In this document: positions 29,905 through 45,876 of the stretch, one piece after another
Layout: every line of letters begins with the position of its first letter
How positions within the stretch are numbered: position 1 is the stretch's first letter
From: a bacterium (Candidatus Blackallbacteria) CG13_big_fil_rev_8_21_14_2_50_49_14
Lineage (GTDB): Bacteria > Cyanobacteriota > Sericytochromatia > UBA7694
Reading direction: 5' to 3'
Assembly (NCBI GenBank): GCA_002783405.1
Contig: PFGG01000071.1
Span: 1 to 64,000 of the forward strand
DNA length: 64,000 bases
Notes under the pieces: model-generated
What the model saw: only the letters and a program-made list of their open reading frames with translations
What the model was told of the DNA's origin: nothing
The model's database searches: none
Made by a program: the position numbers and the translations under genes

Positions 29905-30786
29905 CTATTGCTGGCAATGGGCACAGAAATGCGTTCCTCTTTGCGCCACCACTGTTTTTTCGAGCAGCTGTCCACACCGCAGGCAAGGCATTTTTCCGCG
30001 CCCATACACCTTTAACTCTTCCTGGTGCTCTCCGCCTTTTCCATCGGGGTGCAGATAGTCTTTCAGTGTTGTGCCGCCACTGGCAATCGCTTTCTCAAGA
30101 ATTTTGGGAATGGCGGCAAACAGGCGCTTGGCCTCTGCAGGCCGCAGACTGGCCACCGGCCGTTGGGGGCGAATGCCAGCTTCAAAAAGAGCTTCATCCA
30201 CATAAATATTGCCCAAGCCCGCAATCCGGGTCTGATCAAGTAAAAAAGCCTTGATCGCCCGCTGCCCCTGTAAAAGGCCTTGAAAATGTTTCCAGGTATA
30301 TTCAGACCCCAAGGGTTCAACCCCCAACTTGGCCAAACCAGGGTGTTCCGTCAAAGCCTCTGGCAAGAGTTTCTCTACGCGCCCAAATTTGCGGATATCT
30401 CTGAAATACAGCTGGATCCCCCCTGAAAAACCCAGGCGCAGATGGGTATGTTTATCAGGCAAATCAAGCACAGGCTTGCGGTAATAGGTAAAAGGCAGCA
30501 CCAAGGCCTCGCGCGGTTCAGCCTGAGGGCTTTGGTTGGCTTGCAGGAGCATCTGTCCCGTCATACGCAGATGTACCAGCAGACAATCCTGACTCAAACG
30601 CAGAATCAGATACTTGGCCCGGCGTTCCAGGGCCATGAGTTTTTGTCCTGTCAATGCCTCAGACCAGCTCTCTGGATCCGGCTGGGTAATATGGGGGGTA
30701 TAGATCTCGACCCCTTCAATCTGCTTGTGCAGAAGTTGGGCTTCGAGGCCTTGACGAACAACTTCAACTTCGGGCAATTCAGGCAT
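29905..30786 (-). CDS. mutM: Formamidopyrimidine-DNA glycosylase
   Basis: Fpg/MutM removes 8-oxoguanine and other oxidised purines and nicks the strand. The 293-residue protein starts PELPEVEVVRQGL, with the essential N-terminal Pro and Glu, has the H2TH region (GLGNIYVDEALFEAGI) and a C-terminal zinc finger with four cysteines (CLRCG ... FCAHC). GGAGGA lies before the start codon. It converges on the CheB-like gene with the two stop codons side by side, so there is no room for a terminator between them. Confidence 0.96.
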   Translation of the reverse strand: MPELPEVEVVRQGLEAQLLHKQIEGVEIYTPHITQPDPESWSEALTGQKLMALERRAKYLILRLSQDCLLVHLRMTGQMLLQANQSPQAEPREALVLPFTYYRKPVLDLPDKHTHLRLGFSGGIQLYFRDIRKFGRVEKLLPEALTEHPGLAKLGVEPLGSEYTWKHFQGLLQGQRAIKAFLLDQTRIAGLGNIYVDEALFEAGIRPQRPVASLRPAEAKRLFAAIPKILEKAIASGGTTLKDYLHPDGKGGEHQEELKVYGRGKMPCLRCGQLLEKTVVAQRGTHFCAHCQQ

Positions 30787-30844
30787 GGCAATTTCCTCCG
30801 CTGGTTTTGTAGCACAGGTTTAAGTCTCAAGCACAGGGGCAAGC

Positions 30845-31537
30845 TTAAATCTTTAAACCCGCCTGACGCAGTTGATTGACATAGCTATTAGCCTGGCGCG
30901 TGGTTTCTGGCTGGCGATAGCGTTCACTCAAACGCAAAATCCAATCACAGGCCGTTTCAAGGCTGATACGGTGGCCCACAGAAACATAAACCGGGCGAAT
31001 AGCGGGCTGGGTACGCAAGGCCACACCCACAGTCTCTCCGTTCAATTGTACTGGGCTGCGTGCGCCACGCTCTGGGCCTGGCTCATACTCAGGTTTGAGC
31101 AAAGGCGTTTTGCCGCAGCCTATCGTAGGAATATCCAGCAAAAGCCCCAGATGCGAGGCCAGGCCAAAACGGCGAGGATGCGCCCGACCATGGCCATCAC
31201 AAACAATCAGATCGGGCAAACAGGAAAGCTGCTCTAACGCTTTTAACAAAGGGGGCACTTCTCGAAAAGAGAAAAGCCCCGGCTGATAGGGAAAAACTGA
31301 ATTCCCTACATAATACGCTTTTTCAAGCACTTCCAGCGTCTGCGCATGGAGCACCACCCCCCCCGCAATCAAGAGTTCAGAATCCTTTGCATAGGCAATA
31401 TCAACCCCTGCAACCGTCTGAATTTCAGAAAAAGCATCGCTTAGACAGACTTTTTCTGCCCCATCAGACTGAAAAGCCAAGGCCTCTTCAAGACTGAGAT
31501 TCCAGTCAGGATTCAGGTGAAACTTCAATTCGGGCAT
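30845..31537 (-). CDS. nfi: Endonuclease V
   Basis: Endonuclease V nicks DNA next to deoxyinosine. The 230-residue product has VAGVDIAYAKD with the metal Asp, FPYQPGLFSFREVPPLLKAL with the conserved Glu, LIVCDGHGRAHPRRFGLASHLG, CGKTPLL, and VYVSVGHRISLETA near the end. The ATG at 31537 is used; an in-frame TTG 15 nt upstream is possible. It is upstream of mutM with 58 nt between them, so two base-damage repair genes sit together. Confidence 0.95.
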   Translation of the reverse strand: MPELKFHLNPDWNLSLEEALAFQSDGAEKVCLSDAFSEIQTVAGVDIAYAKDSELLIAGGVVLHAQTLEVLEKAYYVGNSVFPYQPGLFSFREVPPLLKALEQLSCLPDLIVCDGHGRAHPRRFGLASHLGLLLDIPTIGCGKTPLLKPEYEPGPERGARSPVQLNGETVGVALRTQPAIRPVYVSVGHRISLETACDWILRLSERYRQPETTRQANSYVNQLRQAGLKI

Positions 31538-31659
31538 GAGAAAGAAAGGCAACTCCAGCTTGAATTTTTATCTGACTATAGTATCTCACCCAATAGCAGT
31601 ACAACAAAGCCCTTCAGGGCTTGCGAAAAAGCCGCAGAATAAGAGAAGGAAACTATTTT

Positions 31660-31668
31660 TGCTAAACT
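31660..31668 (+). promoter_or_regulatory. Extended -10 directly before start codon
   Basis: TGC-TAAACT ends 6 nt before the ATG at 31675, so the transcript may begin at the start codon. No ribosome-binding site is visible. Confidence 0.45.
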
Positions 31669-31674
31669 GTGGTC

Positions 31675-32712
31675 ATGCCCATTCTTCACCATCTTTCCAG
31701 CAGCGGACACCGTTTCCTACAAATCGCAGACAATTCTGCTGAGTTCAGTACTTTTTCACCCTATGTGGCAACCCTCAATGCCCAAGCAGAGGTTGTCTTT
31801 CAAGCCCGCCTGCGCCAAGGAGGGAGTGGTCTGTTCCTGGGTTCTGGCCAAAAGATTCTCTCACTGGCCCAAACGGATCTTCAATTTCAAGAGTTTGTCA
31901 GCCACCCTGTGGTCAGCGAAACAGGTCAGGTCGCTGGGTTTGCCCATTGTCAGGAGGGTTCTGAAGGCTTGTTTTTATTCGAATCAGGGCAAACACAGGT
32001 CTTGGCACAAACCAATTCAGAAACGAGCAAAATGGGCCCCTTAGGCCCCGTCATCAGTCCCAACGGAGCTATCGCCTTCAGAACCCAGTTGCACTCAGGT
32101 CAGGAAACCCTTGAAGTCTTTACCCCCCAAAAACAAACCCGAATAGCCTGCACCGGAAAAGATTTCAGAGCGTTTCAAGGCTTGCCCCAATTTACACCCC
32201 AAGGGGGGCTCTTGTTTCGTGCCGAAACCCAGTCGGGCAAAGCAGGCTATTATTGTTTTGAATCAGGTCAAATCAGCCCTTGGATTGAAACCGGCTCGGG
32301 CTTTGAAAGCTTGGGGTTGTTTCCTGCACTCAATCAGAGTGGCTGCCTGGTTTTCGCTGCCAGCGAAAAAGAACAAGCTGGTATCTATAGCTGGAACAAG
32401 GGCAAGATCACACGCCATTACAGCACAGCGCAAGGGTTTGAGAGTTTTCGGGGAGGGTTACCTTGGAGGGCCCAACTCGGCCTGTTTTACGCCACCCCAG
32501 TAGGAGGAAATTTGGGCCTCTATCGCCCCACAGAGAGCGGTTATCAATGCATTCTGGCGATCGGAGAAGCCTTTGCCGATTCCAAAATCACAGAATTTGC
32601 ACTCAACCCTGTTTCGCTCAACCCCCAGGGAGACCTTGCCCTGCGTCTCAAACTTCGCAATCGACGCGAGATGATTCTGGCTTATTCACTTAAAAAAAAT
32701 CAATCTAATTAA
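31675..32712 (+). CDS. NxxGxxAF-repeat (DUF7453-like) protein
   Basis: A 345-residue protein with about seven repeats of roughly 45 residues that match the 'NxxGxxAF' tandem-repeat type (DUF7453): PVISPNGAIAFRTQL, PQFTPQGGLLFRAET, PALNQSGCLVFAAS and NPVSLNPQGDLALRL. These probably build a beta-propeller. Unlike many members, it has no signal peptide or anchor. The ATG at 31675 is 6 nt after an extended -10 box; an in-frame GTG lies at 31669. Function unknown. Confidence 0.72.
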   Translation: MPILHHLSSSGHRFLQIADNSAEFSTFSPYVATLNAQAEVVFQARLRQGGSGLFLGSGQKILSLAQTDLQFQEFVSHPVVSETGQVAGFAHCQEGSEGLFLFESGQTQVLAQTNSETSKMGPLGPVISPNGAIAFRTQLHSGQETLEVFTPQKQTRIACTGKDFRAFQGLPQFTPQGGLLFRAETQSGKAGYYCFESGQISPWIETGSGFESLGLFPALNQSGCLVFAASEKEQAGIYSWNKGKITRHYSTAQGFESFRGGLPWRAQLGLFYATPVGGNLGLYRPTESGYQCILAIGEAFADSKITEFALNPVSLNPQGDLALRLKLRNRREMILAYSLKKNQSN

Positions 32713-32796
32713 AATATCTGATTTTTTATTTTAAAAATAAAAGTTTTTAATTAAAAACCGTTAAGTTTCAGCAGAAGTCAAATCAAGTGTAAAAAC

Positions 32797-32805
32797 TGCT
32801 ATAAT
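32797..32805 (+). promoter_or_regulatory. Extended -10 for the OmpR-type regulator gene
   Basis: TGC-TATAAT in an AT-rich stretch, 29 nt before the ATG. A consensus -10 with the extended TGC. Confidence 0.6.
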
Positions 32806-32834
32806 TTATAAATAAAATAAAAAATAGTGTTTCC

Positions 32835-33560
32835 ATGCATATGCCCAAATCCCATCATCCGATCATCCTGCTCATCGATGATGATCCTCAAATCCTGAAA
32901 ACTGTTCAAGAGGTTTTGAGTCTGGATCTCTATCAAGTTCACACGGCAGCAAATGGACAAGAGGGTATTCAAGCCTATGAAACACTCAAACCTGATTTGG
33001 TTCTTTGCGATGTCATGCTGCCAGATATTCTGGGCCTGGATATCTGCCGTACAATTAAACAAAAAAACCCCTGTCAACTTTTTGTCTTTATGACCAGTCT
33101 GGGAGATGAAACCGATCAGGTAGTGGGCCTGGAACTGGGAGCCGATGACTATCTTGTAAAACCCTTTAAAATCAAAACATTTCGCGCAAAGATCCATTCA
33201 CTGCTGCGTCGTTTGAAACAGATCTCCGCTCCCTCACAACAGATTCATTCTCCCCCCATTATCCAAAACAACCTGAGAATAGATACTTCAAGTTATAAGG
33301 CCTGCCTCTCAGGTCAAGAACTCAGCCTCACCCATAAAGAATTTGAAGTGCTGGCTTGGTTGGCAGCACACCCAGGTCAGCTCTTTACCCGCCAGCAACT
33401 GCTTGAACAACTCTGGCAGGAAGACCTCGATGTCAATGACAGAGCGGTTGATGCCTTAATCAGACGTCTGCGCGAAAAGCTTGGCGACTCGGTCTCTGAG
33501 GTACAGTTTATTGAAACGGTACGTGGCATGGGCTATCGTTTTAAGCAAAACCAGCTTTAG
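32835..33560 (+). CDS. OmpR/PhoB-type response regulator
   Basis: A 241-residue two-component response regulator. The receiver (residues about 8-125) keeps all key residues: Asp15-17 region (LIDDDP), phosphorylated Asp59 (LCDVMLP), Thr/Ser in FMTS, and Lys109 in DDYLVKPF. The C-terminal winged helix (residues about 145-238) has LSLTHKEFEVLAWLAAHPGQLFTRQQLLEQLW and the DNA-reading helix NDRAVDALIRRLREKL. No sensor kinase is adjacent, so it is an orphan; the hybrid kinases near 50-56 kb carry their own receivers. Targets unknown, although the lipoprotein genes just downstream are candidates by position. Confidence 0.93.
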   Translation: MHMPKSHHPIILLIDDDPQILKTVQEVLSLDLYQVHTAANGQEGIQAYETLKPDLVLCDVMLPDILGLDICRTIKQKNPCQLFVFMTSLGDETDQVVGLELGADDYLVKPFKIKTFRAKIHSLLRRLKQISAPSQQIHSPPIIQNNLRIDTSSYKACLSGQELSLTHKEFEVLAWLAAHPGQLFTRQQLLEQLWQEDLDVNDRAVDALIRRLREKLGDSVSEVQFIETVRGMGYRFKQNQL

Positions 33561-33749
33561 TCAAGGCTTTCAGCCCTTCCTGACACTTACTCAAAATCTA
33601 TTTAAAAAATCATCCTTTTATCACAGGTCTATCACCATCCAGGCATCAGTCTGTCATTTTGGAGTTTTAAACTAAAAGCATAAAGAAAGAGACCAAGAGC
33701 CCAAATCCCTCAAGGCCCCTTCCCAAAACAGACCAAGGAGAATCGAAAA

Positions 33750-34472
33750 ATGAAAGCTTCAACCCCTCTTAAAACTCTCGCGACATCCTTCTTTGCCTTG
33801 AGCTTGGTTGTGGCCTGTGCTACACCCACCCCAGCCCCTGTTTCAGTTTCATCCGTACTGCAACAAGGGATACAAGAAACCAGCATGAACGTACAGAAAG
33901 CCTTGGCCCAACCTACGATCATTGATGTAGGCCGTGGCCAGATCAAAACGCCAGCCTCATTCAAGCTCACAATCAAAGCTGCTGACGGTGGCTTTGCAGT
34001 TAAAGCCAGCAGCAGTGGGACACGTAACAGCGTGGCAGCAGATATCAGCAGTTTTGATGTCTATCTGATCGACTCTGTCGCTGCTCCTTCAGGCGCAATT
34101 ACGGCAGCCCATGGCCCATTCAATGTGACTGCAAGTTTAGTCACTGGGCAACAGACCATTACCTTTAACAACGTCACGACTTCTACCAATAATTACTATG
34201 TCGCCATTAAAGCAAAGGATTCTGGCGGTGGTAATATCACCAATCTCGGTTCGGGCATTACCATTGGCGGCGCCAATGTCTATGTTTCAACCACAGGCGG
34301 AGGTGGCGCAGGTGAAGTAGGCGTCGGTGCTGCCCCAACCTATACGGTCAGCAGTACCACCCAATTGGGCGTAGGCCTGACACTTTTAGATGCTTTGGGT
34401 GCCACGATTGATTCCAAGGTCACGGTAACCGATGGTTCGACAGCACCGGCCGACCCTGTTTCAGCCTCTTAA
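33750..34472 (+). CDS. Lipoprotein with one copy of a beta-rich unit
   Basis: A 240-residue lipoprotein with lipobox LSLVVAC and AAGGAGA before the start. The mature part contains one roughly 150-residue beta-rich unit (SFDVYLIDS, AHGPFNVTASLVTGQQTITFNN, YYVAIKAKDSGGGNITNLG, APTYTVSSTTQLGVGLTLLDALG). The same unit occurs twice in the next protein. The unit resembles carbohydrate- or fibronectin-type sandwiches but I cannot name the family. The last 41 nt overlap the next gene in another frame. Confidence 0.75.
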   Translation: MKASTPLKTLATSFFALSLVVACATPTPAPVSVSSVLQQGIQETSMNVQKALAQPTIIDVGRGQIKTPASFKLTIKAADGGFAVKASSSGTRNSVAADISSFDVYLIDSVAAPSGAITAAHGPFNVTASLVTGQQTITFNNVTTSTNNYYVAIKAKDSGGGNITNLGSGITIGGANVYVSTTGGGGAGEVGVGAAPTYTVSSTTQLGVGLTLLDALGATIDSKVTVTDGSTAPADPVSAS

Positions 34473-35472
34473 ACTCTGGTCTGTGCTTCTGTTGGGGGGG
34501 CTGATAGGACTAACTTCCTGTCAGCCCCCCTCTTTGCTGAATCTGGCACCCTTCAGCCCCATTACAGAAACACAGTATGAAACAGCTCCGTCCCCTTCGG
34601 AAATGCAAATTGATACAAAAATGGCAGAGACAAGCTCAGCCCAGTTAAAGCTATTGATCAAAACGCCTTCCAAAACTTGGCAAACGCAGTCCAATACAAG
34701 TGGCAGCCCGAACGCGATGGCCTCCGAAATCGCCAGTTTTAAACTCTATCTGGTCGATTCAGGCTCAACACCCAACGGGCCGCTCACCGCCAGTTACGGC
34801 CCTTTTCAAATCTCTGCGAATTTAACCGCTGGCCAACAAAATCTTGTCTTCAATCATTTAAGAAGCTCCAACCAAGCCTATTATGTTGCCATTCTGGCCC
34901 TCGACAGTCAGGGCCAAAACCTCACCCAACTCAATTCGGCTTGCAGTATCAATGGAGAAAACGTATCGGTTTCTACTCAGGGCGGCAACGGACAAGGCCA
35001 ATTGGTGGTAGGCAGTGCCCCCACGTATACTGTCAGCAGCAGTGCGGCCTTGGAAGTTTCCCTGAACCTGCGTGATGCCATAGGGGCCAGTCTGGACACT
35101 CAGTTAAGTGTCATTGATGGCAGCAGCTATCAGGCAAATGATATAGCCTATTTTCGAGCCTATCTCGTCGACAGCAATACAGGCACTCCTCAGATCAGTT
35201 ATGGTCCCTTCAGTATCAATGCCAACCTTTATAACAATACACAGAGCATCAGTATTCTCAATCTTATGCCTGGCAGCTACTATGTGGCTCTGGCAGCGTT
35301 TAATGCCCAAGATACCAACCTGACAAATTCCAGTTTGCTCGTCAACGGACAAGCTGCAGCCGTCTCAACTGATGGGGGAGACGCTCCCGTTGACCCTGGA
35401 AAAATCACCATTGGCAGTGACTACAGTGTGAGCAACAGCGCTGCTCTTCAGGTTCAACTGAATTTACTTTAA
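34432..35472 (+). CDS. Lipoprotein with two copies of a beta-rich unit
   Basis: A 346-residue lipoprotein paralogous to the one before it. The signal peptide ends in lipobox IGLTSC. Two units follow: one at about 60-220 (SFKLYLVDSGSTPNGPLTA, YGPFQISANLTAGQQNLVFN, APTYTVSSSAALEVSLNLRDAIG) and one at about 230-346 (YFRAYLVDSNTGTPQISYGPFSINANL), both ending at a YxVSxxAALxVxLNL strand. The start lies 41 nt inside the preceding gene, an unusually long overlap that could mean strong coupling or a later start codon. Probably surface exposed; function unknown. Confidence 0.72.
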   Translation: MVRQHRPTLFQPLKLWSVLLLGGLIGLTSCQPPSLLNLAPFSPITETQYETAPSPSEMQIDTKMAETSSAQLKLLIKTPSKTWQTQSNTSGSPNAMASEIASFKLYLVDSGSTPNGPLTASYGPFQISANLTAGQQNLVFNHLRSSNQAYYVAILALDSQGQNLTQLNSACSINGENVSVSTQGGNGQGQLVVGSAPTYTVSSSAALEVSLNLRDAIGASLDTQLSVIDGSSYQANDIAYFRAYLVDSNTGTPQISYGPFSINANLYNNTQSISILNLMPGSYYVALAAFNAQDTNLTNSSLLVNGQAAAVSTDGGDAPVDPGKITIGSDYSVSNSAALQVQLNLL

Positions 35473-35485
35473 AAAACCAATCCAG

Positions 35486-35515
35486 TTGACAGTCTTCAGG
35501 CTTGCATCGGATAAT
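35486..35515 (+). promoter_or_regulatory. trp operon promoter
   Basis: TTGACA (35486-35491) and GATAAT (35510-35515) with an 18-bp spacer, the best promoter match in the window. The -10 ends 7 nt before the leader-peptide ATG, so transcription should start at or within 2 nt of that ATG. Confidence 0.8.
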
Positions 35516-35522
35516 AAAGCGT

Positions 35523-35621
35523 ATGAAATACACAGCCCAGACTTCAAACATTTCTAACTGGCGCTGGTGGTGGAGCTCCACTGCCAGTGGCAATTCGTGT
35601 TTGGGCGAAACCACAACTTGA
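35523..35621 (+). CDS. trpL: trp leader peptide
   Basis: An open frame of 32 codons just downstream of the promoter and upstream of the attenuator. Residues 13-17 are Trp-Arg-Trp-Trp-Trp (codons at 35559-35573), a density not expected by chance. When tryptophan is scarce a ribosome should stall here and change the folding of the RNA behind it. The ATG lies at the predicted transcript start, so the leader peptide may be translated from a leaderless end. It is too short to be an enzyme; its job is sensing. Confidence 0.86.
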   Translation: MKYTAQTSNISNWRWWWSSTASGNSCLGETTT

Positions 35622-35695
35622 TTTAGTCACCCCTTTTCAAGTTTTCCCCTCTCAGCCGCCACTGTGCCCCCCCACAGTGGCGGCTTTACTTTTTG
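35564..35695 (+). promoter_or_regulatory. trp attenuator (leader RNA switch)
   Basis: Three alternative pairings are visible. 1:2 is CTGGTGGTGG (35564-35573, the Trp codons themselves) with CCACTGCCAG (35578-35587). 2:3 is CAGTGGC (35585-35591) with GCCACTG (35658-35664). 3:4 is the 13-bp terminator AGCCGCCACTGTG (35654-35666) with CACAGTGGCGGCT (35673-35685), followed by a T-rich run. A ribosome stalled on the Trp codons would block 1:2, free segment 2 for 2:3 and prevent the terminator, letting RNA polymerase continue into trpE. This is the order used in enteric trp operons. Confidence 0.82.
35654..35695 (+). terminator. Attenuator terminator hairpin
   Basis: A 13-bp perfect stem, 6-nt C-rich loop and TTTACTTTTT after it, 35 nt before the trpE start. 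It ends transcription when tryptophan is plentiful. Confidence 0.85.
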
Positions 35696-35729
35696 GTCTG
35701 AAACATCAATAAAATGGAGAAAAAACGCA

Positions 35730-37181
35730 ATGCAGCTTCAGCGCCTGACCCGCGAAATCCCAATGGATACCCTCACGCCGCTTTCTGCCTGGCTGCGCCT
35801 GCGCCAAACCGCCCAACCCGGTTTTCTGTTTGAAAGCGCAGGCTCAGACCTGAGCCAGGCCCGTTACAGCATTTTGGGATTTGCACCAGATGAAATTCTT
35901 ACCCTGCAGGCAGGTGTTTTAAGTCGCCAAACCACCCAAGGCAGAGAAATTCTGCCCGGCCACCCGCTGGAAACCCTCAAAGCCAAACTGCAAGCTGAAA
36001 AAATGCTGACAGACCCCAGCCTGCCACCCTTTACAGGGGGCTATGTGGGCTATCTGGGCTATGACTGTGTCCAATACCTTGAAAAAATCCCTTTGCCCGC
36101 AGAGGCTTCTCCCCTGCCCGAAGCCTGTCTAATGCGTTTCGCACGCGTGCTGGTCTTTGATCATCTCAAGCGTAAAATCCTCTTGGTGGCTCACCTGCCC
36201 CTTGAAGCCAGTGCAGCCGAACTCAACCGCGCCCAGACCGATCTGCAGATTTTACAGGCCCAATTGCGCCATCCCGTGGCCGCCGAAGCCCTGCTTGAAC
36301 TGCCCGACCCGCCCCCGGCAGAGCCCCCCTTGGGGCGCATGGGTGAAGCCGCCTTCTGCGAAAAAGTCAGCCAGCTTCAGGAAGCGATTGCAGAAGGTGA
36401 AATTTTTCAGGCTGTTCTCTCAGAACAATTTCGCACCCCCCTGGAAGGAGACCCCTTCACTCTCTACCGCATTCTGCGCAGTTTGAACCCCTCGCCCTAT
36501 CTCTACTATTTGGATATGGGCGGCCCCGTCTTATTGGGCACCTCCCCCGAAATGCTGGTAAAATCCAACGGCAGCGAAGCTGCCACCTGCCCGATTGCAG
36601 GCACCCGCCGCCGAGGCCATACCCCCGCTGAAGACCAAGCCCTGGCACAGGAATTAATCGCCGATGAAAAAGAGCGGGCCGAACACCTGATGCTGGTCGA
36701 TTTGGGCCGCAACGATCTGGGCCGGGTTTCTCAGCCTGGCAGCGTAGAAGTCAGTCGCTATATGGAACTTGAGTATTTTTCCCATGTCATGCATTTGGTC
36801 TCGCTGGTCGAAGGCCAACTGGCCGAAGGCAAAACAGCCCTGGATGCACTTTTTGCCTGTTTTCCGGCAGGCACCCTTTCTGGCGCCCCCAAAATTCGGG
36901 CCATGGAACTGCTCGGCCAACTGGAACCCGTGCGCCGGGGTTGGTATGGGGGAGCCGTCTTTTATCACGGCTTTGAAGGACAACTCGATGCCTGCATCAC
37001 GATTCGCAGTCTGGCCATTCACCAGGGAGAAGCCATTCTCCAGGCGGGTGCGGGCGTGGTCGCAGATTCCATTCCCCGCCAGGAATATTTAGAAGTGCGC
37101 AACAAAGCCCGTGTCCTCTTTCAGGCCCTGCAAAGCGCCAATGCCCTGGCCACTCAAACCCCCACAGGAGCTATGGCATGA
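35730..37181 (+). CDS. trpE: Anthranilate synthase component I
   Basis: TrpE makes anthranilate from chorismate with ammonia from TrpG, the first step of tryptophan synthesis. The start at 35730 has GGAGA upstream and gives 483 residues, the normal size. Visible: the tryptophan feedback region (FLFESAGSDLSQARYSILG), and the chorismate domain with LGTSPEMLVKS, PIAGTRRRGHT, LMLVDLGRNDLGRV and AGTLSGAPKIRAMEL. The stop overlaps trpG by ATGA. It could in principle be aminodeoxychorismate synthase, but the trp context argues strongly against that. Confidence 0.97.
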   Translation: MQLQRLTREIPMDTLTPLSAWLRLRQTAQPGFLFESAGSDLSQARYSILGFAPDEILTLQAGVLSRQTTQGREILPGHPLETLKAKLQAEKMLTDPSLPPFTGGYVGYLGYDCVQYLEKIPLPAEASPLPEACLMRFARVLVFDHLKRKILLVAHLPLEASAAELNRAQTDLQILQAQLRHPVAAEALLELPDPPPAEPPLGRMGEAAFCEKVSQLQEAIAEGEIFQAVLSEQFRTPLEGDPFTLYRILRSLNPSPYLYYLDMGGPVLLGTSPEMLVKSNGSEAATCPIAGTRRRGHTPAEDQALAQELIADEKERAEHLMLVDLGRNDLGRVSQPGSVEVSRYMELEYFSHVMHLVSLVEGQLAEGKTALDALFACFPAGTLSGAPKIRAMELLGQLEPVRRGWYGGAVFYHGFEGQLDACITIRSLAIHQGEAILQAGAGVVADSIPRQEYLEVRNKARVLFQALQSANALATQTPTGAMA

Positions 37182-37753
37182 TTCTGATCATCGACAACTA
37201 TGACTCTTTTGTATATAACCTTTACCAAGCCCTGGCGGGTGCAGGCGCAGACTGTCAGGTTGTGCGCAACGACGCCCTGCGTGTAACAGAAGTTCTTGAA
37301 CTGGCTCCCCAGGCCGTGGTGCTTTCCCCCGGCCCCGGCCGGCCGGAGCAGGCCGGCATTTGCCTGGAGCTGATCACGGCCATAGCAGGACGTTTTCCCC
37401 TGCTCGGTGTCTGTTTAGGCCACCAATCCATCGCCCAGGCCTTTGGCGGAAAAATTGTACGCACCCAAGCCCTGCATGGCAAAACCTCAGCCATTCAGCA
37501 CCAGCAGCAGGGGCTTTTCGCGGGCCTTCCTTCTCCCATGCAGGTTGCCCGCTACCACTCTCTGATGGCTGAGCGCGAAAGTCTGCCTGACTGCCTCGAA
37601 ATTACCGCAGAAAGCGAAGAGGGCCTGATCATGGGCTTGCGCCACCGCAGCCTGCCGATTGAAGGGGTACAGTTTCACCCCGAATCGATCGCCACGCCGG
37701 AAGGCCCCCGCCTGTTGAAAAATTTTCTCAAAACTTTGGAGGTTTTGGTATGA
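37178..37753 (+). CDS. trpG: Anthranilate synthase component II
   Basis: A 191-residue class I glutamine amidotransferase that supplies ammonia to TrpE. Catalytic Cys is in LLGVCLGHQ and the His-Glu pair in VQFHPES. NYDSFVYNL at the start and LSPGPGRPEQAG are typical. It overlaps trpE and trpD by 4 nt each (ATGA), so the subunits are made in matched amounts. In some bacteria this subunit also serves folate synthesis; that cannot be judged here. Confidence 0.95.
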   Translation: MILIIDNYDSFVYNLYQALAGAGADCQVVRNDALRVTEVLELAPQAVVLSPGPGRPEQAGICLELITAIAGRFPLLGVCLGHQSIAQAFGGKIVRTQALHGKTSAIQHQQQGLFAGLPSPMQVARYHSLMAERESLPDCLEITAESEEGLIMGLRHRSLPIEGVQFHPESIATPEGPRLLKNFLKTLEVLV

Positions 37754-38751
37754 AAACAGTACTGGAAACGCTTTTTGCAGGAGCCCCCCTGGGCGTCAAT
37801 GAAGCAGAAGCGGTACTCGACCGGATTCTCAATGGGGAGGTGCCGGCTGAAGTCACAGGCGCACTCTTGGCGGCGCTGCGTATGCGTGGCGAAACACCGG
37901 CTGAAATTACAGGCTTTGCACGGGCCTTGCGGGCCCGGATGCAAAGAGTCGAAACCCATGAAGAATTGACACTGGACACCTGCGGAACAGGGGGCGACGG
38001 CGGGCTGACCTTCAATGTTTCCACAGCCGTCAGCCTGCTTCTGGCCAGTTTGGACGTCCCCGTAGTCAAACATGGCAATCGGGCGGTCTCCAGTCGCAGT
38101 GGCAGTGCCGATGTGCTCGAGGCCCTGGGCATTCCCCTCCAGAACAGCGCCGAGGGCGTGCGTCAGGCACTGGAAACCAGTCATTTCGGTTTCTGTTTTG
38201 CTCCTGCCTTTCACCCCATTCTCAAAGAACTGGCTCCTTTGCGCCGCAATCTGGGGGTGCGCACGATTTTTAATCTGCTCGGCCCGCTCTGTAACCCCGC
38301 CGAGGTCAGCCACCAGCTCTTGGGGGTCTATGATCGCAAACTCACCCCCGTTCTGGCCGAAGTTCTGCGTCAGTTGGGCACCCGTGAAGCCCTGGTCGTT
38401 GCCTCCTACGATGGTTTGGATGAACTCAGTCTGGCAGCCCCTACGCAGGTCTCACACCTCAAAGCAGGTCAAATTACCCACTTTGAACTCAGCCCTGAAG
38501 AGGCAGGTCTGAAACGACAACCCCTGACCGATCTTGAGGGCGGATCAGCCCAAGAAAACGCGTTGATTCTGGAGCGGATTTTTCAAGGCCAAAAGGGAGC
38601 CGCCCGTGATCTGGTCTGTTATAACGCTGCCGCTGCGCTCTGGATTACCGGCAAGGCCCCTACCTTGCGTGAAGGTGTCCACTTGGCTGCAGAGGCCCTC
38701 GATCAGGGCAAAGTATTGAAAACTCTTGAACTTCTGCGGAGGCCCCTATGA
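37750..38751 (+). CDS. trpD: Anthranilate phosphoribosyltransferase
   Basis: TrpD joins anthranilate to phosphoribosyl pyrophosphate. The 333-residue protein has the PRPP loop DTCGTGGDGGLTFNVST and KHGNRAVSSRSGSADVLEALG, and the second metal/substrate part HPILKELAPLRRNLGVRTIFNLLGPLCNP. Length and motif order are standard. It overlaps trpG upstream and trpC downstream by 4 nt. Confidence 0.97.
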   Translation: MKTVLETLFAGAPLGVNEAEAVLDRILNGEVPAEVTGALLAALRMRGETPAEITGFARALRARMQRVETHEELTLDTCGTGGDGGLTFNVSTAVSLLLASLDVPVVKHGNRAVSSRSGSADVLEALGIPLQNSAEGVRQALETSHFGFCFAPAFHPILKELAPLRRNLGVRTIFNLLGPLCNPAEVSHQLLGVYDRKLTPVLAEVLRQLGTREALVVASYDGLDELSLAAPTQVSHLKAGQITHFELSPEEAGLKRQPLTDLEGGSAQENALILERIFQGQKGAARDLVCYNAAAALWITGKAPTLREGVHLAAEALDQGKVLKTLELLRRPL

Positions 38752-39539
38752 GTGTCTTGACAAAAATCGCCACGGCCACCCGTGCACGTATCGCCCATGA
38801 AAAAACCCTACTGCCCCTGGCAGAGCTGCAGGCCCGTCTCTCAGAAACACGTCAGCCCCAAGATTTTGCCGCTCATTTTAGCCAACCCGGCTTTCAGGTC
38901 ATTGCCGAAGTCAAACTGGCAAGCCCCTCACAGGGAGACATTGCTCCCCAACTGTCTCCTACAGAGGTAGCGGCCGATTATCTCAGGCATGGCGCCACAG
39001 CCCTTTCCGTTCTGACCGAACCTGAATTTTTTAAAGGCCAACTGGACTACCTCAGCACCATCAGAGCCGCCCAGCCCCAAGCACCGCTGCTGATGAAGGA
39101 TTTTATCCTGGACCCCTACCAACTCTATCAAGCGCGCATCGCAGGTGCCGATGCCTGTCTTCTGATTGTGGCCATGCTCGAAAGTTCTGTTTTAAAAGAA
39201 CTGCATGCCCAGGCCCTGGCGTTGGGCCTGACCCCCCTGGTCGAAGTGCACAATGCCGAGGAACTGACCCAGGCCGCCAGCCTCAAACCGCGTCTACTCG
39301 GCGTGAATAACCGCGATCTCAAAACCCTCAAAACCCGCCTGGAAACCTCAAAGGAACTGGCCCCACTGGCTCCAGCGGGGGTTCCCCTGATCTGCGAAAG
39401 TGGCCTGGTAACGGGTCAGGATCTCAAACAGGCACAAAGCTGGGGCTATCACGGTTTTTTAATTGGCACCTCGCTGATGCGTACGGGGCAACCTGGGCAG
39501 GCCCTGGCCCACTTGCTGAAAGAGGCCCACCATGCTTGA
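38748..39539 (+). CDS. trpC: Indole-3-glycerol-phosphate synthase
   Basis: A 263-residue TIM-barrel enzyme that closes the indole ring. Motifs: VIAEVKLASPSQGDI (the usual second Lys of VKKASPS is Leu here; the first, catalytic one is kept), LMKDFILDPYQLYQARIAGADACLLI, LVEVHNAEEL, LGVNNRDLKTL and ICESGLVTGQDL. It is a separate gene, not fused to trpF, which starts 8 nt before it ends. Confidence 0.96.
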   Translation: MSVLTKIATATRARIAHEKTLLPLAELQARLSETRQPQDFAAHFSQPGFQVIAEVKLASPSQGDIAPQLSPTEVAADYLRHGATALSVLTEPEFFKGQLDYLSTIRAAQPQAPLLMKDFILDPYQLYQARIAGADACLLIVAMLESSVLKELHAQALALGLTPLVEVHNAEELTQAASLKPRLLGVNNRDLKTLKTRLETSKELAPLAPAGVPLICESGLVTGQDLKQAQSWGYHGFLIGTSLMRTGQPGQALAHLLKEAHHA

Positions 39540-40188
39540 AAAGATCCGCGTTAAAATCTGTGGGCTGACCCGCCTGGAGGACGCCCAAGAGGCCGCTGAA
39601 CTGGGTGCTTTTGCGCTGGGCTTTGTTTTTTACCCCCCCAGTCCACGGGCTATCGCCCCCGAAGCCGCAGCCAGCATCATCTCGGCCTTGCCCACTGCAC
39701 CTTGGAAAGTAGGTGTTTTTGTCAATCAAGACTTCGAAACCCTGGCCCGGACAGCTTCAAACACAGGGCTCAGCCATCTGCAATTGCACGGCCATGAATC
39801 CCCTGAACTCTGTGAAAAACTTCAGGCCGAAGGCTTTCAAATTATCAAGGCCTTGCGCCCCCGTTCAGAAGCAGATTGGGCTCCCTGGCTGGACTTCCCT
39901 TTTCTGCTTTTGCTGGATACCGCCATCCCCGGCGTTTGGGGCGGCAGCGGCCAAACCGGAGATTGGGATCTGGCGGCCCAGATCGCACGACAAAGACCGA
40001 TTCTCTTAGCCGGAGGGCTCACGCCCGAAAATAGCCTGGCCGCTCAAGCAACCGTTCAACCTTGGGCCCTGGATCTTTCCAGCGGGGTAGAAGCCCGTCC
40101 AGGCGAAAAAGATCCCGCCAAACTGCAGGCCCTGTTTCAAACCCTCAACACTTCTGTATTTGCAAGCGAAAGGAATCCTTCACCATGA
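39532..40188 (+). CDS. trpF: Phosphoribosylanthranilate isomerase
   Basis: A 218-residue TIM-barrel isomerase. [21 protein letters not shown] carries the catalytic Cys, [20 protein letters not shown] the catalytic Asp and the phosphate-binding region, and AGGLTPENS then [16 protein letters not shown] the C-terminal phosphate site. It overlaps trpC by 8 nt and trpB by 4 nt (ATGA). Confidence 0.96.
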
Positions 40189-41396
40189 GCAACCCGCTTC
40201 TGCCCGCCTTCGAACCCCTCAAAACCGGAGGTTATTTCGGCCATTTTGGCGGACAATATATCCCAGAAACCCTGATGGCGCCCATTCAGGAACTCGAAAA
40301 AGCCTGGAACGAAGCCCGGCAAGACCCAGCCTTTCAAGCCGAATTGGCCGATTTACTGCGCCATTATGTAGGCCGCCCCACCCCTGTTTATGAAGCCCGC
40401 AATCTCAGCCAGGCCCTTGGGGGCGCACGGATTTTTCTCAAGCGGGAAGATCTCAACCATACCGGTGCCCACAAGATCAACAATTCCTTGGGCCAGGCCC
40501 TGCTCGCCAAACGCATGGGCAAAACCCGTATCATCGCAGAGACAGGCGCGGGCCAGCACGGGGTGGCCAGTGCCACGGTAGCGGCTTTGCTGGGTCTGAA
40601 CTGCCGTGTGTATATGGGGTCGGTCGATATGGCCCGCCAGGCCTTGAATGTTTACCGCATGCGTTTATTGGGGGCCGAAGTCTTTGCCGTAGACAGCGGA
40701 ACCGCCACACTGAAGGATGCGATCAATGAGGCCATGCGCGATTGGGTCAGCCATGTCGAAGACACCTTTTATCTGCTCGGATCCGCTCTTGGCCCCCATC
40801 CTTATCCAGATATGGTCGCCACCTTTCAATCCGTGATTGGCCGCGAAGCCCGCGCCCAAATCCTTGAGCAGACAGGCAAACTTCCCGATGAAGTGGTGGC
40901 CTGCGTAGGCGGCGGCAGCAACGCCATCGGCATTTTCAGAGGATTTTTGCAAGATGCAGAGGTTCAACTGACAGGCATCGAAGCCGGTGGCCGCAGTCTG
41001 GAACCCGGTCAACATGCCGCCCGCTTCAGTGGGGGCAGCCCAGGGGTATTACACGGCAGTGAGACCTTCGTGCTCCAGAACCCAGATGGCCAAATTCTGG
41101 AGACCCACAGTGTCTCTGCGGGTTTAGACTATCCTGCCGTCGGGCCGGAACACGCAGATTTACAGGAACGGGGAAGAGCCCGCTATTTTTCAGCCAGTGA
41201 CGCCGAAGCACTCGAAGCCTTTCATCGTCTCGCCCGCAGCGAAGGCATCCTGCCCGCACTCGAAAGTTCACATGCTCTGGCCTATGTGCTTAAACAAGCT
41301 CCCACCCTGCGCCCCGATCAAATCCTGCTCGTCAATCTCTCAGGCCGGGGAGACAAGGACGTGCACCAACTCTACCAACAGGAGCAAAACGCATGA
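40185..41396 (+). CDS. trpB: Tryptophan synthase beta chain
   Basis: TrpB joins indole and serine with pyridoxal phosphate. The start at 40185 has AAGGAAT before it and gives 403 residues, the normal size. PLP Lys lies in [21 protein letters not shown]; the family motifs [32 protein letters not shown] (PLP phosphate loop) and NLSGRGDKD are all present. This is the classical TrpB1 type that works with TrpA. It overlaps trpA by 4 nt. Confidence 0.98.
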
Positions 41397-42196
41397 AAAC
41401 CATACACCAAACCCTGATGGCCTGCCGTGCCGAAGGCCGCAGCGCGCTGATCCCCTACCTGACAGCAGGGGTGCCTGATCTGAAAACCAGTGCCCGACTG
41501 CTTCACGCCCTGGCCAAAAGTGGTGCCGACCTGATTGAACTGGGCGTGCCTTTTTCAGACCCCGTGGCCGATGGCCCCGTGATTCAAAAAGCCTCCGAAA
41601 AAGCCCTGGCCCAAGGCGTCAACCTCAGCCAAATCCTGGATTTGGTTGCCCAAGTGCGAAGCGAGGGGCTTGATACCCCACTGATTCTCTTCAGCTACTA
41701 CAACCCGATCTACCACCTGGGCCTTGAAAACTTTGTCAAACGCGCCCAAGAAGCGGGGGTCAGTGGCACCCTGATCGTCGATTTGCTGCCCGAAACCGCA
41801 GGACGCTATTTACACGCTCTGGAAGGAAGCGCTCTGGAAACCGTTTTTCTGGCTGCCCCCACCACAGCCCCGGAACGGCTGGCAGCCATTGACCAGGCCT
41901 CAAGTGCCTGCATTTATTATGTTTCCCGTACCGGAGTTACCGGTACCCGCGAACAGGTTCATACGGATTTACCCGCCACCCTGGCAACCCTCAAAAACCA
42001 GGTCAAAAACCCGATCATCGTGGGCTTTGGAATTTCCAAGCCCGAACACGTGGCCACGCTCAAGGGCGCGGCCGAAGGAATTGTCGTCGGCAGTGCCCTG
42101 ATGGCCGCCCTGGATACGGCAAAAGGCCCGGATCAGGCCGTAGAAATAGCCTCTGCATTGATCCGCTCACTCAAACACCCCCTGGAGGAAAATTAA
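41393..42196 (+). CDS. trpA: Tryptophan synthase alpha chain
   Basis: TrpA splits indole-3-glycerol phosphate and passes indole through a tunnel to TrpB. The 267-residue protein has [11 protein letters not shown], the catalytic Glu in [22 protein letters not shown], the catalytic Asp in LIVDLLPE, and the phosphate site [10 protein letters not shown] with VVGSALM. The DAHP synthase gene begins right after its stop. Confidence 0.97.
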
Positions 42197-43213
42197 ATGT
42201 TGGTCATGATGCGTAAAAACCACAGCCCCGAAGAACTGAATGGACTGCTGAAAAAAATTGAAAAGCTGGGCTATACCGCCCATGTACTTCCTGGCGAACA
42301 CAGCCTGGCAGTCGGCATTACCGGCAATCACAGCAGTGTGGATCGCGAAATTCTCAATCAAATGCCCGGAGTACGTGAAGTGATCCCTGTTTCCAGCCCC
42401 TATAAACTGGCAGGACGCAGTTTTCACCCCGAAGACAGTATCTTTGAGATTGGCCCTGCCCGCTTTGGCAGTTCTGAATGCGTGATCATGGCGGGCCCCT
42501 GCGCCGTTGAAAGTGAAGAACAGACCGTGCGTTTGGCCCATGCGGTGAAAGCAGGCGGTGCTCAAATTTTACGGGGAGGGGCCTATAAACCCCGCACCTC
42601 ACCCTACGCCTTTCAGGGTTTGGGCATTGATGGGCTCAAAATCTTAGCCACCGCCCGAGCAGAAACAGGATTGCCTGTGATCAGCGAAGCTTTGGATTTG
42701 CCCAGCCTGGAAGCCGTTTATGAATACGCCGACATTATTCAGATTGGCACCCGCAATATGCAGAATTTTTCCCTGCTCAAGGCTGCCAGTCAGCTCGACA
42801 AACCGGTACTGCTCAAGCGTGGACTTTCTGCCACGATCGATGAATGGCTCATGGCCGCAGAATATCTCCTGGCCGGAGGCAATGAACGCGTGATTCTCTG
42901 CGAGCGGGGTCTGCGTCACTATGATCCCCATACCCGCAATTTACTCGATTTGGGTGCCGTTCTGGCCGTGCGCAAACTCAGTCATTTGCCGATTGTGGTT
43001 GATCCCAGCCACTCATTGGGCCACAAAAGCATGGTGGTTCCTGCCTCGCGTGCAGCAGTCGCAATCGGGGCGCATGGTTTGCTGGTCGATGTGCATGATC
43101 GGCCCCAAGAAGCCCTCTGTGATGGCCCACAGGCCATTTCTCCCGAGATGTTCAGCGCCATGGTCAAAACCTTGCGTCAGATTGAGGCGGTTTTACAGAC
43201 ACCTGAAGGGTAA
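42197..43213 (+). CDS. aroF: DAHP synthase, AroA-beta/Thermotoga type
   Basis: It catalyses the first step of the shikimate pathway (phosphoenolpyruvate plus erythrose 4-phosphate). The 338-residue protein has an N-terminal ferredoxin-like regulatory domain (residues 1-75, MLVMMRKNHSPEELNGLL, the type that binds Tyr or Phe in Thermotoga) and a barrel with AGPCAVESEEQ, LRGGAYKPRTSPYAFQG, IIQIGTRNMQNF, PVLLKRG, and VDPSHSLGHK. Placing it last in the trp operon means supply of the pathway is raised when tryptophan is short, through the same attenuator. Confidence 0.95.
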   Translation: MLVMMRKNHSPEELNGLLKKIEKLGYTAHVLPGEHSLAVGITGNHSSVDREILNQMPGVREVIPVSSPYKLAGRSFHPEDSIFEIGPARFGSSECVIMAGPCAVESEEQTVRLAHAVKAGGAQILRGGAYKPRTSPYAFQGLGIDGLKILATARAETGLPVISEALDLPSLEAVYEYADIIQIGTRNMQNFSLLKAASQLDKPVLLKRGLSATIDEWLMAAEYLLAGGNERVILCERGLRHYDPHTRNLLDLGAVLAVRKLSHLPIVVDPSHSLGHKSMVVPASRAAVAIGAHGLLVDVHDRPQEALCDGPQAISPEMFSAMVKTLRQIEAVLQTPEG

Positions 43214-43218
43214 ACCTC

Positions 43219-43256
43219 AAAAGCGTGCTCTCACTATTTGAGAGAGCACGCTTTCA
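43219..43256 (+). terminator. Terminator of the trp operon
   Basis: AAAGCGTGCTCTC (43220-43232) and GAGAGCACGCTTT (43242-43254) form a perfect 13-bp stem, then TTTCATTGC and a longer T run at 43262. Confidence 0.85.
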
Positions 43257-43266
43257 TTGCATTTTT

Positions 43267-43296
43267 TTGCATTTCATAGCCTAAAATAAGTATAAT
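43267..43296 (+). promoter_or_regulatory. Promoter for the small glycine-rich protein
   Basis: TTGCAT (43267-43272), 18-bp spacer, TATAAT (43291-43296); start codon 25 nt downstream. Confidence 0.65.
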
Positions 43297-43321
43297 AAAA
43301 ATAAAAAGAGAGCTTTCAAGC

Positions 43322-43807
43322 ATGTCTGTCATTCAATCCGTTCAGCCCATTCAACCCCCAAGCCAAATCTCTCCTTCAACGCCCAAACCAGTTAGCAGCG
43401 AAAGTACACAAACGCCCCCCTCTTCTGGCTTGGAGCAGGATCATATCAACGTGAAAGTCAAGACGGGCCTTCTTCCCAGTACCAAAGGGTTTTTGGCGGG
43501 TGCCGCTCCCTCGGCAGTAATTGGCGCAGGTGTAGGAGCAGCCTTGGGACTGCTCTTTGGACAAGTCAAAATGGGTGCCGCTCTGGGGGGGATCTCGGGT
43601 TCCTTGGCGGGTGGTGTGGCAGGAGCCATTTCTGCCAATATGAGTCCTGAAGAGCTTAAAAATGGCGGGCAAAAGAAAATCTTCAATGCAGGACTGGGAA
43701 CAGGCGCGGTTTCATCCTTTGTTTTGGGCATGACCGTATCCCTCTTTACAACCCCTGTGGGTATCGCAGCTGGTCAGGCTGTCGCAGAACCCCTTCCTTT
43801 AAAATAA
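43322..43807 (+). CDS. Small glycine-zipper-like protein
   Basis: A 161-residue protein. Residues 1-45 are Pro/Ser/Gln-rich with no signal peptide. Residues about 58-105 are a Gly/Ala-rich hydrophobic stretch (AVIGAGVGAALGLLFG, ALGGISGSLAGGVAGAI) typical of glycine-zipper membrane segments, followed by a third hydrophobic segment (SSFVLGMTVSLFTTPVGIAAG). It is flanked by its own promoter and terminator, so it is a single-gene unit. I do not recognise it; insertion into a membrane is likely, the role is unknown. Confidence 0.6.
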   Translation: MSVIQSVQPIQPPSQISPSTPKPVSSESTQTPPSSGLEQDHINVKVKTGLLPSTKGFLAGAAPSAVIGAGVGAALGLLFGQVKMGAALGGISGSLAGGVAGAISANMSPEELKNGGQKKIFNAGLGTGAVSSFVLGMTVSLFTTPVGIAAGQAVAEPLPLK

Positions 43808-43827
43808 ATCTCCGCAGATCATTTTCA

Positions 43828-43860
43828 AAAGAGCGGTCTAAAAAAGACTGCTCTTTATTT
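43828..43860 (+). terminator. Terminator after the glycine-zipper protein
   Basis: AAAGAGCGGTCT (43828-43839) and AGACTGCTCTTT (43845-43856) pair with one G-U, followed by ATTTATTT. Confidence 0.8.
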
Positions 43861-43960
43861 ATTTGAAATACTCCCCCAAAACAAAATATGGCAAGCCCTC
43901 AAGCCCCTTATCACCCCCTTTTTTTCCTCAAGCAATACCCTGTACAATATCTTGGCAGCC

Positions 43961-43969
43961 TGCTAGAAT
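43961..43969 (+). promoter_or_regulatory. Extended -10 close to start codon
   Basis: TGC-TAGAAT ends 10 nt before the ATG at 43980; TGTACA 17 bp upstream could be a weak -35. The mRNA leader would be at most a few nt. Confidence 0.5.
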
Positions 43970-43979
43970 CATTTTCAGT

Positions 43980-44411
43980 ATGTGCAATGATTTTTATTCC
44001 CTGATCCGAAAACTGGGCCTCTTGCTGTGCATGTTGGCTTACGTGATCATTCCCCATCAGGGGGATTTTCTCGATAGTATCAGTTTGAGCACATCACTCC
44101 CCAACCAATCCGCTTTGGTTGAGGCCCAGCAGCAAAGCTTAACCCCTTTTCAAGCGGTTTTAAGAGGGCTGAAAATCACCCCCGAATCAGGCGGACATGC
44201 CCATACCCTGGCCAATCAAGGCATCAGTCATCCTGAAAGTTTTGTAACGGCCCAAACTCCTGAATTTAAAACCATTCAAGTGATCACCCAAGAGGTCAAT
44301 ACCGCTGTTCGGATCTCGTTCCCCCAAGCACCTCTGCCTGTCTATCAGGAATCACATCCCCTTCCCCCCCCTCTTTCTGCACACATCGCCTCGACTGTTC
44401 TGTTGATTTGA
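43980..44411 (+). CDS. Small exported protein upstream of efflux genes
   Basis: A 143-residue protein, start chosen at the ATG 10 nt after the extended -10 box. Residues about 11-25 are hydrophobic (LGLLLCMLAYVII), a signal anchor or signal peptide. The rest has several His and Gln residues (SGGHAHTLANQGISH) and a Pro-rich end. Position 58 nt before the CzcB-like gene suggests a link with metal efflux, and the His residues could bind metal, but this is inference. No family recognised. Confidence 0.5.
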   Translation: MCNDFYSLIRKLGLLLCMLAYVIIPHQGDFLDSISLSTSLPNQSALVEAQQQSLTPFQAVLRGLKITPESGGHAHTLANQGISHPESFVTAQTPEFKTIQVITQEVNTAVRISFPQAPLPVYQESHPLPPPLSAHIASTVLLI

Positions 44412-44453
44412 AGCGTTCGCCGGCTCACCCGGTTTTGAGACGCTTTAAAATTT
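44411..44453 (+). terminator. Weak hairpin before the efflux operon
   Basis: AAGCGT (44411-44416) pairs with ACGCTT (44440-44445), with an inner CCGG/CCGG pairing, then TAAAATTT. It could be a partial terminator between the small gene and the efflux genes. Confidence 0.45.
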
Positions 44454-44469
44454 ACAGAATGGAAAACCT

Positions 44470-45873
44470 ATGAAAGATCAATTTCGAAAAACACTACTGC
44501 TGGCCTGCTCTCTTCTCGTGCTGAGCGCCTGTCCCCAGGAGAAGCCAAAAGCTGAAGAGCAGACCGCCCCCCCCCAAAAAACACAGGGACAAGAACTCAA
44601 ACTTTCGGCCCAGGCCATAGCCAACGCCAAACTGGAACTGCTTCAGGCCGGGCCCAAAACCCTGCGCCAGATTCGCGATTTTCCTGGCAAAATCGCCCTG
44701 GATGAACACCGGGTTCAGGCCATTTCTTCACGGGTCAGCGGGGTTGCTGAACTAACCGATAAACATATTGGCCAACGGATTCGCCAAGGCGATCTGCTGG
44801 CCGTGATCGAAAGCAGAGAACTGGCTGATTTGCGTTTGGATTATCTCAACCAGCAAAAGCAGACCGAGCAAGCCAAAAAACTTCTTCAGCGTGAAGAAAA
44901 TCTGGGCAAACGCATTCAACAATTGATTCAGGCCCTGCGCAAAGGGGGCCAACCCGAAAGTATTCACCAGGCCGTACTGGGCTTGCAGATTGGCAGCAGC
45001 AAAAGCCAGTTATTGACCCATTATTCACGCCTGCGTCTGGCCCAAACCAGTTTTGAGCGCGAAAATAAATTGGCCCAAGACCAGCTCTCCACCTCGCAGG
45101 AATTGCAACAGGCCCGCCAGGAACTCGAAGCCGCCAAAGCCCAGTATATTGGTGCCTTGGAAGATCTCACCTGGCAACGTGAAAACACCCTGCTGGAGCA
45201 TCGCCAAACCCTGCGTCTGGCCCAGTCAGCCCTGGAGTCAGCTCAAGCCAAACTGCAAACCTTTGGGCCGGGTGGCCTGACCCACCTCAGCCCCAACCAA
45301 ATGACCCGCTATGAAATCCGCTCTCCCCTGAGTGGCGTGGTGGTTGAAAAAAATGTCACGGAAGGTCAGGGTGTCATGCCCGATGCTCCCCTTTACAAGG
45401 TGGCTGATCTTTCTGAAGTCTGGGCCGAAATTCAAATCTATGAAAGTGAATTGGATCATATCCGCCTTGGCCAGCAGGTCATGGTACGTGCCGATGGCCT
45501 CAAGCAAAGTGCGCCGGGTCAAATCACCCATGTTAAACCCCTGGTGGATGAAGTCTCACGCTCCGCAGAAGCCCATGCCCATATTGCCAACCCAGGTCTG
45601 ATCTGGCGACCGGGAATGTATGTCACGATTCAGGTCACTGAAGGCACCTGGCAAGTTCCCCTGGCTGTCAAACGCCAGGCCCTTCAACAGCTGGAAGGCA
45701 AAACCGTGATTTTTATCAAGCAGGGCGAACGTTTTCTACCCCGTGAAATAAAAACCGGAAGAGAAGACGGTCAATCGATAGAAATTCTGGCAGGTCTCAA
45801 AGCTGGGGATATCTATGTGGGTAAAAACAGCTTTGTCTTAAAATCCGCCTTGCTCACCGCGCAGGAGGAATAA
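44470..45873 (+). CDS. RND efflux periplasmic adaptor (CzcB/CusB type), lipoprotein
   Basis: A 467-residue membrane-fusion protein that links the inner-membrane pump to the outer-membrane channel. Lipobox LVLSAC gives a lipid anchor. Visible: the barrel-sandwich half-motifs (IRDFPGKIALDEHRVQAISSR and YEIRSPLSGVVVEKNVTEGQGV), long coiled-coil helices between them (residues about 125-270, rich in Gln/Glu/Lys), and a C-terminal domain (PLAVKRQALQQLEGKTVIFI). No N-terminal His/Met metal-binding stretch is seen. It is the first gene of a three-gene set, 3 nt before the pump gene. Confidence 0.88.
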   Translation: MKDQFRKTLLLACSLLVLSACPQEKPKAEEQTAPPQKTQGQELKLSAQAIANAKLELLQAGPKTLRQIRDFPGKIALDEHRVQAISSRVSGVAELTDKHIGQRIRQGDLLAVIESRELADLRLDYLNQQKQTEQAKKLLQREENLGKRIQQLIQALRKGGQPESIHQAVLGLQIGSSKSQLLTHYSRLRLAQTSFERENKLAQDQLSTSQELQQARQELEAAKAQYIGALEDLTWQRENTLLEHRQTLRLAQSALESAQAKLQTFGPGGLTHLSPNQMTRYEIRSPLSGVVVEKNVTEGQGVMPDAPLYKVADLSEVWAEIQIYESELDHIRLGQQVMVRADGLKQSAPGQITHVKPLVDEVSRSAEAHAHIANPGLIWRPGMYVTIQVTEGTWQVPLAVKRQALQQLEGKTVIFIKQGERFLPREIKTGREDGQSIEILAGLKAGDIYVGKNSFVLKSALLTAQEE

Positions 45874-45876
45874 GCC

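Follow-up and report, generated by a model that had tools for sequence, protein, structure and literature searches.

The trp operon and its upstream region

The DNA analyzed here (the window) is a stretch of 64,000 nt from Candidatus Blackallbacteria CG13_big_fil_rev_8_21_14_2_50_49_14 (contig PFGG01000071.1), whose genome of 5.65 Mb lies in 84 contigs and is about 96% complete. Its forward strand carries eight genes in the order trpEGDCFBA-aroF, each of which abuts its neighbor or shares a few bases with it. Family models identify them as trpE (anthranilate synthase component I, 35730-37181; TIGR00564, 506 bits, slightly below the curated cut-off), trpG (anthranilate synthase component II, 37178-37753; TIGR00566), trpD (anthranilate phosphoribosyltransferase, 37750-38751; TIGR01245), trpC (indole-3-glycerol-phosphate synthase, 38748-39539; NF001377), trpF (phosphoribosylanthranilate isomerase, 39532-40188; NF002298), trpB (tryptophan synthase beta, 40185-41396; TIGR00263), trpA (tryptophan synthase alpha, 41393-42196; TIGR00262), and an aroF-type DAHP synthase of the DAHP_synth_Bsub family (42197-43213; NF006421, TIGR01361), in agreement with the eight genes, DAHP synthase included, that the original prediction had placed under control of the leader. 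The start of trpB was set at the ATG at 40185; the mechanically called open reading frame begins with a TTG at 40062. Directly after the DAHP synthase gene comes a strong hairpin with a T run behind it, the likely operon terminator, read directly from the forward strand (AAAGCGTGCTCTCAC...GAGAGAGCACGCTTT; 43220-43269). A sub-threshold Rfam match to the Listeria RNA rli40 on the opposite strand is spurious and corresponds to this same hairpin, and no other Rfam riboswitch or known leader was matched at the trp locus. Upstream of the trp promoter, between 33750 and 35472, lie two adjacent lipoprotein-like reading frames of 240 and 346 amino acids, both of which contain similar GPF...LTAGQQ...YYVAI segments; the second, 346 amino acid product has no NCBIfam match.

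A sigma-70-type promoter on the forward strand (TTGACA-18 nt-GATAAT, 35486-35515) matches the consensus at 11 of 12 bases, against 0.3 sites expected in shuffled sequence. Just downstream lies a reading frame of 32 codons plus a TGA stop codon (35523-35621, forward strand), here called trpL, which encodes the putative leader peptide MKYTAQTSNISNWRWWWSSTASGNSCLGETTT and is predicted to be leaderless. Its codons 13, 15, 16, and 17 are TGG, and the resulting TGG CGC TGG TGG TGG run (35559-35573) encodes Trp-Arg-Trp-Trp-Trp; a strong promoter followed by exactly such a frame had been described in the original prediction. Four TGG codons within five in-frame codons occur once in the 64 kb, both strands considered, where a first-order Markov model leads one to expect 0.07 occurrences.

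The regulatory Trp codons double as the 5′ arm of a hairpin (1:2, the anti-antiterminator; 35562-35589) with a 12 bp core (CGCTGGTGGTGG / CCACTGCCAGTG) and a 4 nt loop, to which two further pairs reaching 35559-35592 can be added; it is part of the minimum-energy fold when no ribosome is present. Segment 2 of the antiterminator (CAGTGGC, 35585-35591) is complementary to segment 3 (GCCACTG, 35658-35664), and segment 3 can pair instead with segment 4 in an intrinsic terminator, whose 13 bp stem (35654-35685; 10-12 bp in relatives) is followed by a T-rich tail that ends at 35694. All of these features lie on the forward strand, and the three pairings fall at the very bases given for them in the original prediction. 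The region 35523-35700 folds with an energy z-score of -5.9, and none of 200 shuffled sequences folded as well. Because the leader stop codon is located 28 nt beyond segment 2, segments 1 and 2 both stay free to pair when a ribosome is positioned on it.

Conservation and folding of the leader in the family

Relatives were found through their TrpE proteins, and the DNA upstream of trpE was then read. The family comprises five genomes (G000, that of the window, through G004), and the leader is present in four of them, that is, in every one in which the region upstream of trpE is assembled; G002, whose contig begins inside trpE, was left out. TrpE identity to the window protein is 79% in G001, 64% in G004, and 42% in G003. 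The leader frame is open over 28-35 codons and Trp-rich in all four genomes, and its Trp run is WRWWW in G000, in G001 (MKPNASLKISASNWRWWWPSTASGNWRLGKKEILF), and in G004 (MTQNIYLATLNQSWRWWWISTAGGEMSLGSFT), and is permuted to WWWRW in G003 (MYTHASSSWWWRWQVNASGRSRACIWVT); the rest of the peptide, segment 2 excepted, shows little conservation. The G003 trpE gene (L113, bp 3-860) is the most divergent in the family and still keeps the attenuator. Operon gene order in G001 and G004 is that of the window, DAHP synthase included, with the G004 operon split over two contigs. DNA upstream of the promoter varies between members, so conservation of the leader is not mere synteny, and a binning artifact is unlikely, given that each family member is an assembly of its own. 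Six other genomes of the same class were examined and have a trpE without such a leader; in the DNA examined, no further trp gene lies beside it, except a DAHP synthase gene in one. The original prediction had named a lack of conservation of the leader frame or of the competing pairing in close relatives as grounds for its rejection; both are kept in the three other family genomes that have the region, and this attempt at refutation from sequence failed.

The 2:3 pairing is possible in 24 of 24 cells of the four-genome alignment, compared with 20-61% when the segments are slid against one another, and two of its pairs survive one-sided changes to G-U. The 1:2 and 3:4 pairings taken together are formed in 96% of cells, and only 2 to 43 of 2000 shuffled sequences reach the duplex energy of 2:3. 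In G003, segments 3 and 4 are both altered; 3:4 is retained and 2:3 is extended to nine pairs. No compensatory double changes (both sides of a pair) occur in the four-sequence alignment used. Of the covarying arms for which a search among relatives had been recommended, the competing pairings are indeed kept, but the four sequences give little true covariation.

Constrained folding, of the kind recommended in the original prediction, was applied to each of the four leaders with an approximate ribosome footprint blocked. When a ribosome is placed at any of the clustered Trp codons and the transcript is truncated ahead of segment 4, every one of the four leaders folds best as the 2:3 antiterminator; when no ribosome is present, every one folds best as 1:2 plus the terminator. 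When the ribosome is placed at the stop codon, the nascent fold retains 1:2 in three of the four. The exception is G003, whose nascent minimum-energy fold is then 2:3, so that its off state relies on 1:2 forming first. The terminator is favored in every full-length fold, and the choice of antitermination must therefore be kinetic, as is assumed for E. coli.

Other known regulators of trp genes were sought as well. TrpR was not found in four family genomes (controls positive), nor was TRAP (PF02081; Bacillus subtilis control positive); Rfam gave no T-box match over 30000-48000 (E<=1), and RF00513 (Trp_leader) had no match over the same interval at this threshold or in the whole genome, although its E. 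coli control was positive. No leader with a comparable Trp-codon run was seen at trpS of the five family genomes. T-box and TRAP-like leaders control trp genes in Firmicutes, and a tRNA-sensing or protein-binding leader of this sort might be imagined here; given that neither a T-box in the 30000-48000 interval nor a PF02081 protein in the genomes was detected, we consider it extremely improbable. It is also conceivable that the terminator, which is strong (13 bp) and conserved, acts constitutively, at a fixed rate or modulated by Rho, a protein, or a ligand, and that the W-rich frame before it is fortuitous. Such a terminator would not explain why four genomes maintain four in-frame TGG codons out of five, one of them in permuted order, nor why segment 2 is conserved and complementary both to the Trp codons and to segment 3; with TrpR and TRAP not found in the genomes either, this account is very unlikely to be correct.

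Predicted leaderless start and mechanism of attenuation

The promoter elements are placed alike in the four genomes: TTGACA is found 36-37 nt upstream of the leader start codon, and a hexamer resembling the -10 box (four to five of the six TATAAT positions) ends exactly 7 nt before that codon. A -10 box is usually separated from the start of transcription by just this distance. The 5′ end of the RNA should accordingly be the A of the ATG or a neighboring base, which leaves no space for a 5′ UTR or a Shine-Dalgarno sequence. With its start site thus predicted, trpL is probably translated from a leaderless RNA, a feature that is new relative to the first description of this leader.

Leaderless trp attenuators are known elsewhere. 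In Sinorhizobium meliloti, the 5′ end of the trpL RNA is the ATG of trpL (PMC7298713), and, as is probably also the case for the operon of the window, there is no transcriptional repression; the S. meliloti leader (rnTrpL/peTrpL), however, encodes a 14-residue peptide in front of trpE(G) alone, whereas that of the window encodes 32 residues in front of a complete eight-gene operon in another phylum. The Streptomyces lividans trpL1 leader (MFAHSTRNWWWTAHPAAH) is also leaderless and has a Trp triplet and probably a Rho-independent terminator (PMC8079986). More generally, the Streptomyces and Corynebacterium trp attenuators share with the window leader UGG runs and three mutually complementary segments (PMC1262725), but differ in segment sequences and in phylum, and the S. 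lividans trpE is monocistronic. The similarity in predicted architecture to S. meliloti, down to the RNA 5′ end at the trpL ATG (PMC7298713), raises the question of whether the attenuated RNA (about 170 nt) and the peptide might also act in trans, like rnTrpL and peTrpL; such activity would add to a cis-acting attenuator and the two are not mutually exclusive. By analogy it may be entertained, but the low conservation of the peptide beyond the Trp run and segment 2 offers no hint of a conserved peptide target, and we regard a role in trans as improbable.

By its anatomy and conservation, then, this leader appears to be a classical ribosome-mediated transcription attenuator of the trp operon, a reading to which we assign a probability of about 93% and which bears out, at the level of sequence, the central claim of the original prediction: leader frame, Trp run, competing pairings, and terminator are all conserved in the family. 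From this anatomy we infer the start site, ribosome stalling, and read-through as follows. Transcription would start with the A of the trpL ATG or right beside it, and a ribosome would load on the leaderless RNA. When charged tRNA-Trp is scarce, it should stall at the W-R-W-W-W codons and cover segment 1, whereupon segment 2 would pair with segment 3 and the polymerase would read through into trpEGDCFBA-aroF. When charged tRNA-Trp is plentiful, the ribosome would proceed to the stop codon beyond segment 2; 1:2 could then re-form behind it, segment 3 would pair with segment 4, and transcription would terminate before trpE.

The parallels with the E. coli trp leader (RF00513) are a leader peptide with tandem Trp codons, mutually exclusive 1:2, 2:3, and 3:4 pairings, and an intrinsic terminator right before trpE. 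On the other hand, there is no sequence or covariance-model match between the two; the window leader is predicted to be leaderless, while that of E. coli is Shine-Dalgarno-led; and the window leader has four Trp codons among 32 residues in a genome with no TrpR found. The geometry differs as well, since the E. coli leader stop codon lies between segments 1 and 2 and that of the window well beyond segment 2.

Range and possible origin of trp attenuation

The host belongs to a non-photosynthetic class of Cyanobacteriota, outside Proteobacteria and Actinobacteria. Six genomes of the same phylum carry PsaA/PsaB, which among the control genomes occur in Synechococcus alone and so identify the phylum; photosystem I genes were found neither in the host, G001, G003, and G004 nor in one other member of the class, which is probably Sericytochromatia or a neighbor of it. 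The proviso of the original prediction, that the known range of this control would be widened if the host lay outside Proteobacteria and Actinobacteria, thus applies to this member of the Cyanobacteriota without photosystem I.

A covariance model was built from the four family leaders; it is close to its members and would miss leaders of different sequence, and when run against the 18 genomes of the class and against 386 sampled from the phylum it gave strong hits in the four known members only, with none elsewhere in the class or in about 370 further genomes of the phylum. Weaker hits, of 15-29 bits, were attributed to chance, on a reading of two of them: one in G002 (L138) has no Trp run, and one in G273 (L143) has no comparable W-rich leader. 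A scan for a short tandem-Trp reading frame plus terminator at 123 strand-loci with trp genes found, upstream of trpE, only the family leaders and one other, in a KSB1 metagenome-assembled genome (contig JAFGEC010000657.1, L016). This leader (296-370, MNITFSNTNSNWWWWLIDSAPPAE) precedes trpE-G-D-C-F, and its fold switches between 1:2 and 2:3 with ribosome position, a complete switch of its own. It resembles the window leader in its Trp-rich peptide, in a 13 bp terminator before trpE, and in that switch, but has a Shine-Dalgarno sequence and a 5′ UTR, a TTG start, a stop codon beside segment 2, and an unrelated sequence. Over 296-432 of the contig, the NWWWW leader with its Shine-Dalgarno sequence and terminator is directly followed by a second hairpin and T run. 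An unrelated trp attenuator in KSB1 implies that attenuators of this kind reach beyond the two classical phyla.

Before a Firmicutes case was reported in 2010 (PMC2965389), leader-peptide systems had been known from no phyla other than Proteobacteria and Actinobacteria, and reading frames rich in branched-chain amino acid codons have been described upstream of ilvB in various phyla (PMC10272879). The claimed widening of range is therefore fair in that the host is a member of the Cyanobacteriota, but its extent is only moderate, given these cases and KSB1. We regard it as a real range extension of a known kind of attenuator; such a leader may have been predicted earlier in some unusual phylum. 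A comparative study stated in 2016 that reliable data on attenuation in cyanobacteria were lacking (PMC4833913), and the leader described here is a well-supported candidate in that phylum. Trp attenuators of this sort are missed by the Rfam model, and beyond the classical phyla their annotation is likely incomplete.

Whether the lineage makes general use of attenuation was addressed through HisG and LeuA, and neither offered a locus to compare: HisG was found in none of the five family genomes (positive in 13 of 14 controls), and in the same five no LeuA scored above the cut-off or was convincing. Gene content thus suggests histidine and probably leucine auxotrophy in a family that has kept a full trp operon. 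We tentatively propose, at somewhat less than even odds, that classical trp attenuation arose independently in this family of Cyanobacteriota when its trp genes joined one operon, and again in KSB1; a leaderless trpL, which is also known from alphaproteobacteria and from Streptomyces, would in that case be a convergent way of coupling the first ribosome to the polymerase. The recurrence of the leaderless arrangement in such distant groups offers a testable idea of how the leader ribosome may be synchronized with the polymerase.
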